From assembly GCA_002415895.1 (NCBI GenBank), contig DIAV01000163.1, positions 1 to 10,488 on the forward strand: a stretch of DNA of 10,488 nucleotides. The letters run 5' to 3'. A model generated the notes under the pieces. The model did not search any database. It was not told where the DNA came from and saw only the letters and a list, made by a program, of their open reading frames with translations. Positions 2,632-9,647 of the stretch are shown piece by piece; within the stretch, counting starts at the first letter, position 1, and every line of letters begins with the position of its first letter. The DNA comes from Anaerolineales bacterium UBA5069 (GTDB lineage: Bacteria; Chloroflexota; Anaerolineae; Caldilineales; Caldilineaceae). The translations under genes were made by a program, and so were the position numbers.

Positions 2632-2704
2632 GGGCGCGCCCGGTATGGGAATGGTTGTTTGTCGTTCGTTCATGTGGGCTGATTGAGCATAAAGGAGCAT
2701 TCGC

Positions 2705-3520
2705 ATGCGCAACTTGCTGCACATCCTGCTGCGTGTCTTGCCACGCTGGTCGATCATTGTATTCCTGGTGCTTGTATTGGCGAGCGCCGGCGTTGCCCTG
2801 GCCGCGCCCGCTTCACAGCTCGGCGCATCGGCTGCGAGTGCCGGACTGGACCCGCTCTCGCCCGATGAACAGGCGCGTGCCCTGGCTGGCGCAGCCGCGC
2901 TGCGCAGCGTAAGCGCGGCCGCTGTGCGCACAGCGCAGGCTGATCCCGGCCAGGTGGCGGTGACAGCGCCCGCCGAAGAGCTTGTGCTGCTGGAGCGCCA
3001 CCAGGAAAGTAAGGATGTGATGGCCGCCGGCGCATGGGCACGGCGCGCCGATCTTTTTCTCTACCGGTATGCGGATGACACCCTCGTGCATGGTCTCTAC
3101 GATTACGCCACAGGGCAGACGACAGTGATTGAGGAGGTTCAGGGGGTGCAGTTGCCGCTGAGCGACGGCGAGCGCGCGACGGCGATTGCGCTGGCTTTTG
3201 CCGATACACCCTTGCACGCGCAAATGGCCGACGAGTACCGGCTGATTACGGGGAATGCGCTCACCAGCGCGGCGCAACTGGATTTTCGTGTCTTCAACTA
3301 CCACGCCGGTTCCAACCCCGAGATGGAAACGCCCGCTGTGCAGGCGTGCGCCATCAATCGCTGTGCGCAACTGCTGATCCTCACCGATCAGAACGTGACA
3401 CTGCGCGCACTGCCAATTGTCAACCTCTCCACCATGCGCGTTGTCAGCGTCCTGCCCTTTGATGTGGGGCAGCCATCCGATGTACAGAACGGCCACACGC
3501 ACAGCGAAGGAGGCAACTGA
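2705..3520 (+). CDS. Secreted N-terminal (N2/N3-like) subunit of a split copper amine oxidase
   Basis: This 271-residue protein has an N-terminal signal sequence: basic start, hydrophobic stretch at about 16-33, and an ALA-A cleavage-type motif at 31-34. After it, residues 47-60 (GLDPLSPDEQARAL) resemble the 'LDPLt..Ei..a' opening of the copper amine oxidase N2 domain, and 89-103 fit its end. Residues 112-157, with YDYATGQTTVIEEVQGVQLPL, resemble the N3 domain. The part after about 175 I do not recognise; it holds two Cys (215, 220), the only ones in the protein. It ends in a His-containing tail (HTHSEGGN). In known enzymes N2/N3 sit in the same chain as the catalytic domain and help dimer and channel architecture. 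Here the catalytic domain is the next gene, whose ATG overlaps this stop codon. Start: AAAGGAG seven bases upstream. The gene is certain; the domain assignment is good but by eye. Confidence 0.75.
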   Translation: MRNLLHILLRVLPRWSIIVFLVLVLASAGVALAAPASQLGASAASAGLDPLSPDEQARALAGAAALRSVSAAAVRTAQADPGQVAVTAPAEELVLLERHQESKDVMAAGAWARRADLFLYRYADDTLVHGLYDYATGQTTVIEEVQGVQLPLSDGERATAIALAFADTPLHAQMADEYRLITGNALTSAAQLDFRVFNYHAGSNPEMETPAVQACAINRCAQLLILTDQNVTLRALPIVNLSTMRVVSVLPFDVGQPSDVQNGHTHSEGGN

Positions 3521-5196
3521 TGATGCAGCCGCAAACTCCACCGCAGATTGCAAATCAACAGGCGTTTCGCCGCGCGCTCCTGCGCCACTCGCTGGGTGTA
3601 GCGCTCGTGCTGGTTGGCGTATTGCTGCTGGCGGCCACATGGATGCATGGGTCTGCGCGCCTGCTGGCGCAAAGCGAGCACGCATGCTCGGCTGCGTACC
3701 GCATTGACAAGACCCTGCCCACGGGCACGCGCTGGGAGATGTGCTGGGAGCAGCGCGCGCTGGATGGCATTGTGCTGTACGACATTACCATGACGCCGCC
3801 GGGTGAGGCGCGCCGGCTGATTCTGGCGCAGGCGGGTCTGGCGCAGGTGCATGTGCCCTATGATGACAACGGTGCACGTTTTCATGATGTGACGGATTTC
3901 GGCTTTGGCGGCAGCTATCTGCAGAACCTGACTGCGGCCGAATGCCCCGCAGGCACGCTCATTCCCTATGGCGGCAAGAACGTGCTCTGCATGCAGATTC
4001 AGCCGCGCGGGTATGCGCAAAAGTATTACGCGCGCCAGCTTCAGGGCTATGAACTGTCGCTCTTCAGCGTATCGGCATCGGGTGATTACAACTACATTGT
4101 GCAATACGAGTTTTATGATGACGGCACAATCTTGCCCAGCGTGGGCGCATCGGGGCAGTTGCAGCGCTACGGCACGAATGCCGCCTATGGCTGGGTAACG
4201 GCCACCAACCGCATCCCCATCTCGCACTACCACAACTACTGGTTTCGCCTGGACTTTGACCTGAACGGTCGCGAGAATGACTTGGTGCAGGAGATTCAGA
4301 TCAACCCGACGGACCAGAACCGCCGCCGCGAGAAGCAGCTCACCGATATTACGCTGGAGGCGGCGCGCCGGCATGATCCCAGCGTGCAGCGCAGTTGGCG
4401 CGTGTTGGACAAGGTGACACGCAACGCAGACGGTAACTTCATCTCCTATCAGATTGAGGGCATGAGCAGCGGGCACGACTTCACCGGGCCGGACTTTGAG
4501 CCCTTTACGCAGAATGACCTCTATGTAACAGCCTTCAAGTCGTGCGAGAACTACCCATCGCATAACCCGCAGCTTGGCGGCTGTGCGGGTGACGTGTCGC
4601 AATTTGTGAATGGCGAGAGCGTGGACGGTACGGACCTTGTGGTTTGGTACGGAATTACCTTCCACCACCTGCCGCGCGAAGAGGATGAAGTCTACATGGA
4701 TGTGCACTGGGATGGCTTCACAATCATCCCGCGCGATTGGACAGCGCACAATCCGCTGGACAACGTGAATGGGGGTGGTACAAATGCGACGTCGACGCCC
4801 ACGCCCACGCCATCGCCCACACCGACAGTACAACCGGCCGCGCTTGAAGTGGACCCGCAGCAGGTGACGTTGATTGACGCGGATTTACCGCTGACGGTAA
4901 CCGTGCATGTTTCGCAAACGGGGAGTGGCGGGCCGATTGCGTGGCAGGCGCAGAGTGACGCTGCGTGGATTGTGGCCAGCCCGCCGCAAGGCAATACGCC
5001 GGCCAGCCTTTCGCTGGACGTTCGTGCGCCGGTGGCGGCACGTGGCGCGATGGCGGGCACAGTCTACACGGGAACCGTGACGGTGAAGTCCACGGAACAG
5101 ACTGTGCTGCAACCCATCGCGCAGGTGCATATCACGGTACTGAGCGGGCTGACGGAGAAGAACTTCGTGCCTGTTATTGAGGGTCCCACACAGTAG
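3520..5196 (+). CDS. Membrane-anchored copper amine oxidase catalytic subunit with C-terminal BACON-like domain
   Basis: Copper amine oxidases use copper and topaquinone (TPQ, made from an active-site Tyr) to oxidise primary amines to aldehydes, ammonia and hydrogen peroxide. After a hydrophobic anchor (about 25-41), the 558-residue protein follows the catalytic domain in order: W72...GIVLYDI (83-89), VPYDD (112-116), and the base motif HDVTDFGFG (122-130; Asp123). The cofactor motif SGDYNYI follows (187-193; Tyr190), then HYHNYWFRLD (236-245; copper His236 and His238) and VVWYGITFHHLPREED (374-389; third copper His383). Six Cys (56, 75, 142, 157, 342, 355) could make three disulfides. A Thr/Pro linker (about 421-440) leads to a BACON-like beta domain (about 440-541) and a KNFVPVI tail. 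The TPQ motif reads D-Y-N instead of the usual N-Y-(D/E). The ATG overlaps the previous stop (TGATG) and has AAGGAGG at 3507-3513, so the two genes are translationally coupled. No N2/N3 domains occur in this chain. Confidence 0.85.
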   Translation: MMQPQTPPQIANQQAFRRALLRHSLGVALVLVGVLLLAATWMHGSARLLAQSEHACSAAYRIDKTLPTGTRWEMCWEQRALDGIVLYDITMTPPGEARRLILAQAGLAQVHVPYDDNGARFHDVTDFGFGGSYLQNLTAAECPAGTLIPYGGKNVLCMQIQPRGYAQKYYARQLQGYELSLFSVSASGDYNYIVQYEFYDDGTILPSVGASGQLQRYGTNAAYGWVTATNRIPISHYHNYWFRLDFDLNGRENDLVQEIQINPTDQNRRREKQLTDITLEAARRHDPSVQRSWRVLDKVTRNADGNFISYQIEGMSSGHDFTGPDFEPFTQNDLYVTAFKSCENYPSHNPQLGGCAGDVSQFVNGESVDGTDLVVWYGITFHHLPREEDEVYMDVHWDGFTIIPRDWTAHNPLDNVNGGGTNATSTPTPTPSPTPTVQPAALEVDPQQVTLIDADLPLTVTVHVSQTGSGGPIAWQAQSDAAWIVASPPQGNTPASLSLDVRAPVAARGAMAGTVYTGTVTVKSTEQTVLQPIAQVHITVLSGLTEKNFVPVIEGPTQ

Positions 5197-5205
5197 AATG
5201 GAGAA

Positions 5206-5241
5206 ACGCAGCGAGGCTTCCCCCAGGGGAAGCCTCGCTGC
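5206..5241. repeat. 36-bp palindromic repeat, copy 1 (possible bidirectional terminator)
   Basis: GCAGCGAGGCTTCCCC (5208-5223) and its exact reverse complement (5226-5241) meet around a two-base centre: a 16-bp perfect palindrome. It sits between two converging genes, 11 bases after the amine oxidase stop and 17 bases past the HAAS gene stop. On the minus strand GTTTCTC follows, a poor U-tract, so it could end the HAAS transcript. The plus side has no T-run. A 36-bp identical copy in the same orientation lies at 6386-6421. Confidence 0.85.
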
Positions 5242-6385: not shown

Positions 6386-6421
6386 ACGCAGCGAGGCTTC
6401 CCCCAGGGGAAGCCTCGCTGC
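6386..6421. repeat. 36-bp palindromic repeat, copy 2
   Basis: The sequence is identical to 5206-5241 over all 36 bases and in the same orientation. Here the palindrome is longer, because AC (6386-6387) also pairs with GT (6422-6423), giving 18-bp arms. It lies 30 bases past the stop of the BNR-propeller gene, on the side where that transcript would end, and just upstream of the candidate HAAS promoter. No U-tract follows on either strand, so it is either a U-poor terminator or a dispersed palindromic element. Confidence 0.85.
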
Positions 6422-6452: not shown

Positions 6453-9400
6453 CTACGTCACAATTGCGGGTACGCCCGCCTGTGCGATCAGCGCATTGAG
6501 CGCCTGCACGTCGGTTTGCAGCACCTCATCCAGCAGTGCAACCTGCGCCTGGATGGCGGCGCTGTACTGCTCTACAAGCGCGGCGGCTTGTTCTGTGGGG
6601 CGGGCATCAGCCGTGCCGATGGTGGGCACAAGTGCGCCAATTGCATCGTTGAGGCGCGGCCGCTGCACCAGGTGATAGTTGTCCTTCTGATCGCCCGGCA
6701 GGACCAATGCATCCTCGATGGGAGCAAGCTTGGCGATGATGGCGGTTGCGGCGCTGTCTATATCGGCGCGCTCGGGCAGCAGCTTCTGCCAGCTTTGCAC
6801 CTGATCGCGCACAGTGCGCAATGTCTGCACGGCGCGGTAGCCATCTGAGACGGCGTCGCGAATACGCAGCAAGACAGTGTGCTGCTCCTCAAGGTGGGCA
6901 AATGGCGTTTGCACGCGCAGGTCGTTAACGACGTCAAAGCGCTGCGTTTGCACACTGCTGCCCACGGTGAGCCGAACGGTATATGCGCCGGGCAGCGCCC
7001 AGGGTCCTTCATTGAGGTCGCCGCCTGTCTTGTTGCCCGCGAGACGTATTGCGCCCTCTTCACGCAGGTTCCAGACGAAGCGGTGGATGCCGGCTGTCGT
7101 GCCAATCCACGGCCCGGGCTTGAGGCTCTTGGCCTTGTCATCAAGCTTGTCGTACCCGCGCGGCTTGGCCCCGTAAGTGCGCAGGACGTTGCCGTCTCCA
7201 TCAAGAAAAGCCAACTCAACCGTCGTGTCTCCAGTTACGTCCTCGGGCAGGTGGTAGTAGACGATGGCGCTGCGCGGCGCCCCTTGGCCTGCGTCGAGGT
7301 ACTGCTTTTCAATGGCCCCCAGTTCCGTGCGCTTTGCCACGGCTGTGGCGCAATTGCCCATACCAATGTTATAGAGACGGCCCTCGGGCGCCTGCCAGCT
7401 TTCAAAGAGGTCGGGCAAAATGCGATAGGTGGTGCGTGGCGCAAAGAGGTAGGGCGCAGCCTGCGCCACTTCGCCGCGTGCCTGCTGGTAGAGCGGCGTC
7501 AGGTCGTCCATGATCCACGCCGAGCGGCCATGGGTGGCAATCACAAGGTCCGTGCCCTTGATCTGCATGTCGTAGACAGGGCAGACGGGGAAGTTGCCCG
7601 CCCAGCGCGCCCAGTGCGCGCCGTCATCCAGCGAGAGGTAGAGGCCCGTTTCCGTGCCGGCATAGAGCAGGCCGGGCTGGTTGGGGTCGGCGCGAATGAC
7701 GCGAGTGAAATCATCTGTGGGGATGCCGGTCGTGATTTCGCTCCACGTTGCGCCGTAGTCGGTGGTCTTGAAGAGCCAGGGCCTGGTGTCGTCCAGCTTG
7801 TAGCGGGTGGCCGCCAGGTAGCAGGTGGCCGGATCGTGGGGCGATGGCTCCACCGTGCGAATCCATGCCCATTCGGGCAGCGCTGGCGGGGTGACATTCT
7901 GCCACGACGTGCCGCCATCGCGCGAGAGGTGCACAAGGCCGTCATCGCTGCCGGCCCAGAAGACACCCTTTTCATGGGCGGATTCGCGGAAGGTGTAGAT
8001 TGTGCAGTAGTGTTCGGCGGCGCTGCTGTCGAGGGTGATCGGCCCGCCCGACGGGGTTTGCTTGGATTTGTCGTTGCGTGTCAGGTCCGGGCTGAAGGGT
8101 TCCCATGAGTGGCCGTTGTTTGTCGAGCGGAAGGCCATATTGCCGCAGGCATAGAGCAGGTTGGGATCATGCGGCGAGAAGAGCAGCGGGAACGTCCACG
8201 GGAAGCGGTACTTGAGCGTGCTGAGGGCAATGTCGCCGCCCGTGTTTTCGGGCCAGACGTTAATGAGCTGGATTTGGCCCGTGGCATGATCATAGCGCTG
8301 GATGGAGCCGAGGCCGCCGGGCGAACTGCCCACCGCGCCAACGATTGTCACGTTGTCATCCTTGGGGTCCACGGCGATATAGCCGCTCTCGCCCGTGCCC
8401 GCCACGTAGCAATCGCCCATGGCAATTGCGCCCGAGATGGTGTCGCTGGGCACGCTGATGCTGGAGTTGTCCTGCTGGGTGGCATAGACGCGATAGGGGA
8501 AGCGCCCGTCGGTGTCAAGGTGGTAGAACTGGGCGGTGAGCTGGTTGTAGACGGTGCTGAAGGATGCGCCGGCATCAAATGAGACATTGGCGCCGCCGTC
8601 GTTGCCCTGAATCATGCGGCGGTTGTTGTGGGGGTCAATCCAGAGGCCGTGGTTGTCGCCGTGGGGCGTGGGAATCTCGCTGAAGGTGCTGCCACCGTCA
8701 ATTGAACGGTGAAAGCCGAGGTTGGAGACGTAGACCGTGTCGGCGTCCTGCGTGTCGGCGTGGATGTGCATGTAGTACCAGGGGCGGCGGCGCAACTCGT
8801 GCTGCTCGCACAGCAACTTCCAACTGTCGCCAAAGTTGTCGGAACGGTAGAGGCCGGGGTCATTCTGGCTTTCGACCATGGCCCAGACGCGGCCAGCCTG
8901 CACCGGCGACGCGCTGATACCGATTTTGCCGTATAGCCCCTCGGCGGGCAGGCCGGCGTGGCGACTGATGTCCGTCCATGTGTCGCCGCCGTTGGTGGAG
9001 CGCCAGATGCCGCCGTCTTCGCCGCCGCTGCTCATGTACCAGGGGCCACGCCGCGCCTGCCAAATGGTGGCGTAGAGAATGCCCGGGTTGCGCTGGTCCA
9101 GCGTGATGTCAATTGCGCCGGCGCGGTCGCTGATGTACAGCACCTTCTGCCACGACGCGCCGCCGTCGCGCGAGCGGAAGACGCCGCGCTCCGCGTTCGT
9201 GCCAAAGGCGTGGCCCAGCGCCGCGACGTAGACAATGTCGGGGTTTTTGGGGTGGATGCGAATGGCGCCGATGTGGCGCGTGTCGCTCAGGCCCATGTGC
9301 GTCCACGTGCGCCCGGCGTCCGCAGATTTGTAGACTCCGTCGCCATGCGAGACATCGGTGCGGATAGCGGTCTCGCCCATGCCTGCATAGATCACGTTGG

Positions 9401-9647
9401 GGTCGGAGATGGAGACTTCGAGCGCGCCCACGGACGAGGTCTTGAGGAAGCCGTCCGAGACATTCAGCCAGGTTGTTCCGGCGTCGGTGGTCTTCCAGAT
9501 GCCGCCGGCGACACCGCCAAAGTAGAAGGTGGCAATGTCACTGGGATCACCGGCCACAGCGACGACGCGCCCGCCACGCGGCGGCCCAATGCAGCGGAAC
9601 TTGAGGGCGGAGAACAGGGCATCCTGTTCGGAGAGCAGGCTGGTCAT
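6453..9647 (-). CDS. BNR/Asp-box beta-propeller protein (VPS10/sortilin-like), cytoplasmic by sequence
   Basis: This 1064-residue protein is a double beta-propeller of the BNR/VPS10-like type. At least eleven Asp-box motifs (S/T-x-D-x-G-x-x-W/F) are visible, near residues 52, 107, 158, 216, 268, 314, 356, 507, 575, 627 and 671, each closing a blade. The N-terminal signature FRCIGPPRGGRVVAVAGDP and the segments between boxes (NPDIVYVAALGHAFG, WIDPHNNRRMIQGNDGG) fit the large bacterial family annotated as BNR-repeat or 'sialidase-like'. No sialidase Arg triad can be claimed. After about 735 comes an Ig-like region (GIHRFVWNLR, 853-861; PGAYTVRL, 886-893). A helical C-terminal domain (about 915-1060) follows. 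Homologues in other phyla often carry a signal peptide, but here the protein starts MTSLLSEQDALFSALKF without one. The start is supported by AAGGAG six bases upstream (9654-9659). The ligand is unknown. The gene has its own promoter and ends before a palindromic repeat. Confidence 0.88.
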   Translation of the reverse strand: MTSLLSEQDALFSALKFRCIGPPRGGRVVAVAGDPSDIATFYFGGVAGGIWKTTDAGTTWLNVSDGFLKTSSVGALEVSISDPNVIYAGMGETAIRTDVSHGDGVYKSADAGRTWTHMGLSDTRHIGAIRIHPKNPDIVYVAALGHAFGTNAERGVFRSRDGGASWQKVLYISDRAGAIDITLDQRNPGILYATIWQARRGPWYMSSGGEDGGIWRSTNGGDTWTDISRHAGLPAEGLYGKIGISASPVQAGRVWAMVESQNDPGLYRSDNFGDSWKLLCEQHELRRRPWYYMHIHADTQDADTVYVSNLGFHRSIDGGSTFSEIPTPHGDNHGLWIDPHNNRRMIQGNDGGANVSFDAGASFSTVYNQLTAQFYHLDTDGRFPYRVYATQQDNSSISVPSDTISGAIAMGDCYVAGTGESGYIAVDPKDDNVTIVGAVGSSPGGLGSIQRYDHATGQIQLINVWPENTGGDIALSTLKYRFPWTFPLLFSPHDPNLLYACGNMAFRSTNNGHSWEPFSPDLTRNDKSKQTPSGGPITLDSSAAEHYCTIYTFRESAHEKGVFWAGSDDGLVHLSRDGGTSWQNVTPPALPEWAWIRTVEPSPHDPATCYLAATRYKLDDTRPWLFKTTDYGATWSEITTGIPTDDFTRVIRADPNQPGLLYAGTETGLYLSLDDGAHWARWAGNFPVCPVYDMQIKGTDLVIATHGRSAWIMDDLTPLYQQARGEVAQAAPYLFAPRTTYRILPDLFESWQAPEGRLYNIGMGNCATAVAKRTELGAIEKQYLDAGQGAPRSAIVYYHLPEDVTGDTTVELAFLDGDGNVLRTYGAKPRGYDKLDDKAKSLKPGPWIGTTAGIHRFVWNLREEGAIRLAGNKTGGDLNEGPWALPGAYTVRLTVGSSVQTQRFDVVNDLRVQTPFAHLEEQHTVLLRIRDAVSDGYRAVQTLRTVRDQVQSWQKLLPERADIDSAATAIIAKLAPIEDALVLPGDQKDNYHLVQRPRLNDAIGALVPTIGTADARPTEQAAALVEQYSAAIQAQVALLDEVLQTDVQALNALIAQAGVPAIVT

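Follow-up and report, generated by a model that had tools for sequence, protein, structure and literature searches.

A Probable Two-Subunit Copper Amine Oxidase Encoded by Overlapping Genes in a Caldilineaceae Bacterium and Its Relatives

Results

A Pair of Overlapping Genes

Two overlapping genes, here called P1 and P2, occupy positions 2705 to 5196 of a 10,488-nucleotide stretch of DNA (the window) that represents positions 1 to 10,488 of contig DIAV01000163.1 of Anaerolineales bacterium UBA5069, a member of the Caldilineaceae whose assembly comprises 4.05 Mb in 412 contigs and is 84% complete. Comparisons of sequence and predicted structure make it likely that their products pair as subunits of a single exported copper amine oxidase (CuAO), an enzyme whose structurally characterised members are all, according to a 2012 review (PMC3382800), homodimers with domains D1 to D4 on one chain. 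The features of the locus, as identified from the list of open reading frames (ORFs), an AlphaFold2 model, and profile comparisons, are as follows.

2691-2697, plus strand: Shine-Dalgarno-like AAAGGAG of P1, 7 nucleotides 5' of the P1 ATG (sequence)
2705-3520, plus strand: P1, 271 amino acids, stand-alone N2-N3 (D2-D3) subunit (ORF list, AlphaFold2 fold, HHalign)
2705-2806, plus strand: P1 hydrophobic N-terminal signal or anchor, about residues 1-34 (hydropathy)
2840-3142, plus strand: P1 N2-like (D2) half, about residues 46-146 (AlphaFold2 secondary structure and VIA-align range; boundary approximate)
3143-3469, plus strand: P1 N3-like (D3) half, about residues 147-255 (AlphaFold2 and VIA-align; boundary approximate)
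3299-3301, plus strand: P1 Tyr199, proposed amine-channel residue (HHalign; channel role suggested by PMC3382800)
3347-3364, plus strand: P1 hallmark C-x3-R-C, Cys215, Arg219, and Cys220 (counts in P1 ORFs)
3507-3513, plus strand: Shine-Dalgarno-like AAGGAGG of P2, within the 3' end of P1, 6 nucleotides 5' of the P2 ATG (sequence)
3518-3522, plus strand: TGATG stop-start overlap, P1 TGA at 3518-3520 and P2 ATG at 3520-3522 (sequence)
3520-5196, plus strand: P2 catalytic subunit, 558 amino acids (ORF list, Pfam)
3520-3672, plus strand: P2 hydrophobic N-terminal signal or anchor, about residues 1-51 (hydropathy)
3691-4755, plus strand: P2 CuAO catalytic domain (D4), residues 58-412 (PF01179)
3886-3888, plus strand: P2 catalytic base Asp123 (alignment)
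4084-4092, plus strand: P2 Asp189-Tyr190-Asn191, cofactor Tyr with non-canonical flanks (alignment)
4225-4233, plus strand: P2 copper ligands His236-x-His238 (alignment)
4666-4668, plus strand: P2 third copper ligand His383 (alignment)
4843-5106, plus strand: P2 C-terminal BACON domain, 3' of a Thr/Pro-rich linker (PF19190, 4e-7)

A preliminary description of this DNA had proposed two coupled genes that overlap at TGATG, each with its own Shine-Dalgarno sequence and hydrophobic N-terminus, and sequence and hydropathy bear this out. Near the N-terminus of each protein lies a strongly hydrophobic 15-residue segment (mean Kyte-Doolittle value 2.9), which starts at residue 17 in P1 and at residue 25 in P2.

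P2 Is a Catalytic Chain and P1 Resembles the Missing Module

The inferred product of P2 matched PF01179 over residues 58-412 with an E-value of 1.9e-39 and a score of 136.1 bits, well above the curated cut-off of 27; the BACON domain lies beyond this catalytic part. Alignment confirmed the earlier statement that the three copper histidines, the base Asp, and the cofactor Tyr are retained, in that P2 has the gate Tyr114, Asp123, Tyr190, His236, His238, and His383. All of these except the gate Tyr, together with Cys142 and Cys157, were invariant across 38 aligned P2 sequences. The D2-D3 module is missing from the chain and sits on P1, and P2 is therefore a variant rather than a standard member of the CuAO family.

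P1 of the window had no Pfam match at an E-value of 1 or lower, PF02727 (N2) and PF02728 (N3) included. Nevertheless, its identity as an N2-N3 protein, as originally suggested, was borne out by two other approaches. Among PDB entries, an AlphaFold2 model of P1 was matched best by CuAO structures over their N2-N3 (D2-D3) region, as judged by both Foldseek and VIA-align (residues 31-47 of the model, just after the hydrophobic segment, were of low confidence), and a P1 profile aligned with a profile of 17 single-chain CuAOs, taken over their N-terminal part, with an HHalign probability of 95 and an E-value of 2.7e-8. Rejection of the identity on the strength of Pfam alone is overturned by these structure and profile results, which support the view that P1 is a D2-D3 module that has diverged beyond the reach of the Pfam models. 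Among relatives of P1, N2 was matched weakly in 4 of 34 (best E-value 6e-4), AGAO-like N2 in three, and N3 in none; in a control, the N-termini of single-chain CuAOs matched both N2 and N3 in 17 of 17 cases. We set aside the N2 matches as family-wide support, because unrelated families reached a similar level and one of them, PT-TG, scored as often and better.

Two further features of P1 deserve mention. HHalign placed Tyr199 opposite a bulky Trp of the single-chain N3 domain, and the residue there is Phe or Tyr in 31 of the 33 P1 rows that have one. The motif C-x3-R-C is present at every one of the 81 loci with more than 140 P1 profile columns (82 of 84 when all P1 ORFs are counted) and in none of 27 single-chain CuAO ORFs, two of which are fragments. 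No precomputed Pfam domain is attached to any of 62 P1 relatives, and annotation therefore conceals the partner of P2; those that have a source name are labelled "hypothetical protein," save for one "Cu2+-containing amine oxidase."

Residues Flanking the Cofactor Tyrosine Are Altered

The CuAO consensus at the cofactor tyrosine is reported to be T-x-x-N-Y-D/E (PMC3382800), which is a feature of the characterised members of the family and not of the fold family. P2 of the window instead reads A-S-G-D-Y-N. We counted the adjoining residues in 93 intact P2 rows of the split type, which had been selected for having the Tyr and the HxH motif. Six rows with fewer than 300 of the 365 columns were removed beforehand (two fragments from locus L032 and rows of L021, L022, L025, and L026), as were the duplicates L111 and L112, the latter identical to the start of L031 from Caldilineaceae; near-identical Herpetosiphon rows were retained. 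The residue before the tyrosine was Ala in 46, Trp in 31, Glu in six, Ser in five, Gln in two, and Asp, Lys, and Arg in one each, and Asn in none of the 93. The residue after it was Asn in 32, Glu in 30, Tyr in ten, and others in 21; Glu and Asp together make up 32. By contrast, 26 single-chain CuAO rows (fragments included) had Asn (24) or Ile (two) before the tyrosine and Glu (19) or Asp (seven) after it. The gate Tyr, the base Asp, and the third His were kept in all 93 intact split-type rows.

Substitutions at these positions have been described for single-chain enzymes. In HPAO, N404A is reported to yield only 5-10% topaquinone and E406Q to slow biogenesis by an order of magnitude, whereas N404D, the change seen in P2 of the window, slows it only about 2-fold (PMC3382800). 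In AGAO, N381A is reported to make topaquinone formation 180-fold slower and to lower kcat 160-fold (PMC9491219). The altered flank therefore renders P2 activity less certain than the preliminary description held. A working enzyme is still plausible from the sequence, the catalytic residues being kept; what has to be given up, with D-Y-N in place of N-Y-D/E, is some of the confidence.

The Two-Gene Layout Is Conserved

Searching species genomes with the P2 alignment yielded 318 related loci, and the layout counts refer to the best 80 of these. At 71 of the 80, a P1-like ORF lies 5' of the P2-like ORF on the same strand, with 83 to 540 nucleotides between the P1 stop codon and the P2 catalytic domain. 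The pairs belong to three phyla, Chloroflexota, Gammaproteobacteria, and Actinomycetota, and are found in, among others, Caldilineaceae, Herpetosiphon (including the complete genome CP000875.1), Thiothrix, Leucothrix, Cocleimonas, Methylomonas, Hydrocarboniphaga, Pseudomonadales, Rubrobacter, Actinomadura, and Streptomyces. Stop-start overlaps recur outside the window, examples being TGATG in L076 and L114 and ATGA in L115, and the source locus-tag pairs R3A44_22365/22370 and R2911_26225/26220 are consistent with adjacency. No P1 adjoins P2 at nine of the 80 loci (L050, L060, L062, L065, L068, L069, L072, L073, and L077), of which L068, L069, and L073 have a short upstream sequence; the assemblies of all nine, as identified by a shared assembly prefix, carry P1 elsewhere (L047, L045/L070, L048/L075, L051, L056, L074, L067, L079, and L052). 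P1 is spread over two frames in L064, as is the first P2 in L032, and L117 holds just a P1 fragment that runs to the end of its sequence. Database clusters contain five P1 sequences on four contigs and five P2 sequences on two contigs, and the split is therefore not an error of one assembly.

An in-order P1-P2 single chain was absent from the 120 listed (of 319) protein relatives of P2, among which the best E-values were 0.13 with a close P1 profile and 1.9 with a diverse one. Relatives of 707-766 amino acids had been suspected of being such fusions from their length, and this was ruled out: the added length is C-terminal, and the P1 profiles scored at noise. In relatives P0020 to P0034, which are catalytic chains of this length, the extra stretch lies between the catalytic part and a BACON-like tail. 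A fusion in the reverse order, P2 followed by P1, does exist as one open frame of 702 amino acids in genome G526 (L116:52-2157). As read by eye, two hydrophobic segments separate its P2 and P1 parts and could place the two domains on one side of the membrane.

The search for the same layout in relatives that had been suggested at the outset thus found it at most of the best loci, and of the stated counter-case, a fused gene, one example in reversed order turned up. The retention of the pair in three phyla, together with the hydrophobic N-terminus seen in 53 of 62 relatives of P1 and in 110 of 119 relatives of P2, upholds the proposal that the two genes encode a genuine enzyme and are not the remains of a broken one.

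Dead Catalytic Paralogues in Proteobacteria

At 32 loci, from sources titled Gammaproteobacteria, a subgroup of these, or in one case just Proteobacteria, P1 is followed by two catalytic-type genes, P2a and P2b. P2b keeps the base Asp, the HxH histidines, and the cofactor Tyr. P2a is dead: the base Asp and both HxH histidines are absent from all 34 P2a rows (by a gap in two), and the cofactor Tyr from 28. The 34 dead copies cluster together with support of 1.0 in an unrooted 152-tip tree, which separates the 129 split-type tips from 23 single-chain tips with the same support. L044, from Hydrocarboniphaga, has a live P2 only. Two P2 fragments in L032, from Caldilineaceae, also lack these catalytic residues, and a dead copy may therefore exist outside Proteobacteria. 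Other arrangements include P1 with one dead and two live copies in a row (L039 and L041) and two dead-live pairs around one P1 (L070 and L075). Tails vary among the relatives of P2; two of the proteobacterial P2b proteins have Ig- and cadherin-like domains.

Downstream of P2b, BLASTP detected a YtkA-like gene at 17 and a MauG-like di-haem peroxidase gene at 15 of the 80 loci (L037 and L051 included); with Pfam on two such loci, MauG was above the cut-off in both and YtkA below it in both. In a different enzyme, MauG carries out the maturation of a quinone cofactor. Neither gene was among the scanned ORFs of the window contig, and both were left out of the mechanism considered for the window.

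Other Features of the Window

Upstream of the pair, on the minus strand, Pfam identified a BipA/TypA translational GTPase (36-1931) and a small GYD-domain protein (2135-2455). A 36-nucleotide palindrome with perfect arms of 16-18 nucleotides and a 2-nucleotide loop occurs in two identical copies, at 5206-5241, after P2, and 1180 nucleotides further on at 6386-6421; the copies flank an ORF of 366 amino acids, and the 28-nucleotide core is found at three places in the genome, the third on another contig (C393). A 1064-amino acid protein with Sortilin-Vps10/BNR repeats (6453-9647, minus strand) is unrelated to the pair.

Discussion

P1 and P2 most likely form a secreted hetero-oligomeric amine oxidase, in which the contact between them is something we infer. 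Both proteins would be translated in a coupled manner from a single message, would be exported independently, and would come together outside the membrane. P2 would supply the entire D4 domain, with its three copper histidines, its base Asp, and the Tyr to be oxidised to topaquinone, and would dimerise through it; P1 would supply the D2-D3 module that lies on the same chain in other CuAOs, packing on D4 and completing the wall of the amine channel. At the cell surface, to which the BACON tail may tether it, the assembled enzyme would then convert a primary amine, O2, and H2O to an aldehyde, NH3, and H2O2. In Proteobacteria a third part, the dead D4 paralogue, would replace one half of the D4 dimer.

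Several observations weigh against this interpretation. The Asn before the cofactor Tyr, whose replacement is reported to make AGAO N381A slow (PMC9491219), is absent from P2. The distribution of P1 is patchy, with five of 396 genomes of the class having it, the source of the window among them. An interface between P1 and P2 did not emerge from structure prediction: in an AlphaFold2 model of a read-through P1-P2 chain from the relative L044, P1 was not at the canonical CuAO site. That model had a predicted template modelling score of 0.64, a linker with a per-residue confidence (pLDDT) below 50, and a whole-chain Foldseek root-mean-square deviation of about 25 Å, and its VIA-align matches covered residues 238-612, that is, the D4 part. 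It is the model of a single chain with a disordered linker and few paired rows, since ten of its 92 further alignment rows were read-through pairs and the rest one-part, and a few full-length P2 rows place 11-29 residues on the P1 part. Because P1 was not docked canonically, the interface stands as inferred only. Finally, distances between P1 proteins correlate with those between P2 proteins in a mirror-tree comparison, a result that counts for little, because common descent is by itself enough to produce it.

Of the other ways to account for the pair, an ordinary gene break or assembly error, in which a single-chain CuAO was frameshifted at TGATG, has a vanishingly small chance of being right. 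Taken together, the two parts do match a single CuAO in size and in domains, but each has its own hydrophobic N-terminus and ribosome-binding site, the layout recurs at 71 of the 80 best loci in three phyla, P1 sequences cluster from four contigs, and no in-order fusion was found among the listed relatives. It is also highly improbable that P2 works alone, with P1 an operon neighbour that has a role of its own. Nine loci without a nearby P1 could be taken to suggest as much (three of them with short upstream sequence), yet all nine assemblies carry a P1 locus elsewhere, and the fold of P1 is exactly what P2 lacks.

The altered cofactor flank bears on two further explanations. The pair could be genuine yet have lost its amine oxidase function, with the substitutions around the cofactor Tyr blocking topaquinone formation and the copper site serving some other purpose. 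D-Y-N in the window, the lack of Asn before the Tyr throughout the intact split-type rows, and the reported behaviour of HPAO N404A and E406Q (PMC3382800) would fit, but we regard this as improbable: the gate Tyr, base Asp, and third His persist in every intact row, whereas the base Asp is gone from all 34 dead rows, and N404D is reported to cost HPAO only about a factor of two in biogenesis (PMC3382800). Rather unlikely, too, is that P1 is a maturation factor, an exported D2-D3-like chaperone that helps P2 to load copper or form topaquinone and whose C-x3-R-C is a redox or metal site. Such a role would suit the confinement of that motif to P1 (81/81 loci, against 0/27 single-chain ORFs), the change of flank in all 93 intact rows, of a kind reported to slow biogenesis in single-chain enzymes (PMC3382800, PMC9491219), and the want of a docked model. 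Against it, P1 keeps a complete two-domain D2-D3 fold and is aromatic at the channel position (31/33 rows), features that would be superfluous for a chaperone, and the reversed fusion tethers P1 to P2.

Enzymes that are activated by a dead paralogue, with folds unrelated to that of CuAO, offer an analogy for P2a and P2b. The trypanosomatid deoxyhypusine synthase and the AdoMetDC-prozyme pair, though they are other enzymes, likewise combine a live and a dead partner, as reported in PMC3663545 and PMC5201418. The Thiothrix/Leucothrix-type P1-P2a-P2b operons found here have P1 and a catalytic P2 homologous to those of the window and differ in the extra dead D4 paralogue between them and, in some, in the YtkA-like and MauG-like genes downstream. 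With the single-chain CuAOs (AGAO, ECAO, HPAO, and those of pea and human; PF02727, PF02728, and PF01179), P2 shares the D4 fold, the three copper histidines, the base Asp, the gate Tyr, and the cofactor Tyr, and P1 shares the D2-D3 fold. The split type differs from them in having D2-D3 and D4 on separate exported chains, in lacking Asn before the cofactor Tyr, in the C-x3-R-C of P1, and in that P1 lies beyond Pfam N2 and N3. The titles and opening lines of abstracts in the open PMC literature, a scope with subscription journals mostly outside it, contained no description of a split or two-subunit CuAO, nor did that literature as searched yield one of a P1-P2a-P2b operon; a 2025 CuAO survey concerns plant and animal sequences (PMC12058724).

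Viewed as two subunits of one oxidase, P1 and P2 suggest that a multi-subunit form of a textbook enzyme has been overlooked. More tentatively, and with rather less than even confidence, we suggest a separate, obligately hetero-oligomeric branch of the CuAOs in which a free D2-D3 would complete the amine channel and assume the cofactor control of the missing Asn, and in which the gammaproteobacterial dead D4 would be retained as the donor of a beta-hairpin arm to its live partner, yielding a natural single-site enzyme. Several of the hosts are filamentous bacteria and several of the catalytic chains have surface-type domains, so that on this reading the substrate could be amines of surface or sheath proteins, in a lysyl-oxidase-like role. 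The Asn is thought to hold topaquinone in place, and about half of the intact members (46/93) have Ala there, as in the crippled AGAO N381A mutant; split-type P2 proteins may thus be slow enzymes, or another factor, perhaps P1, may substitute for the Asn. A conserved two-gene form would allow D2-D3 to be added or left out, and so provide a direct test of its function. Mixed-metal experiments with HPAO are reported to suggest communication between the two active sites (PMC3382800), and the three-part form, which pairs a dead D4 with a live one, would offer a natural means of testing such cross-talk.
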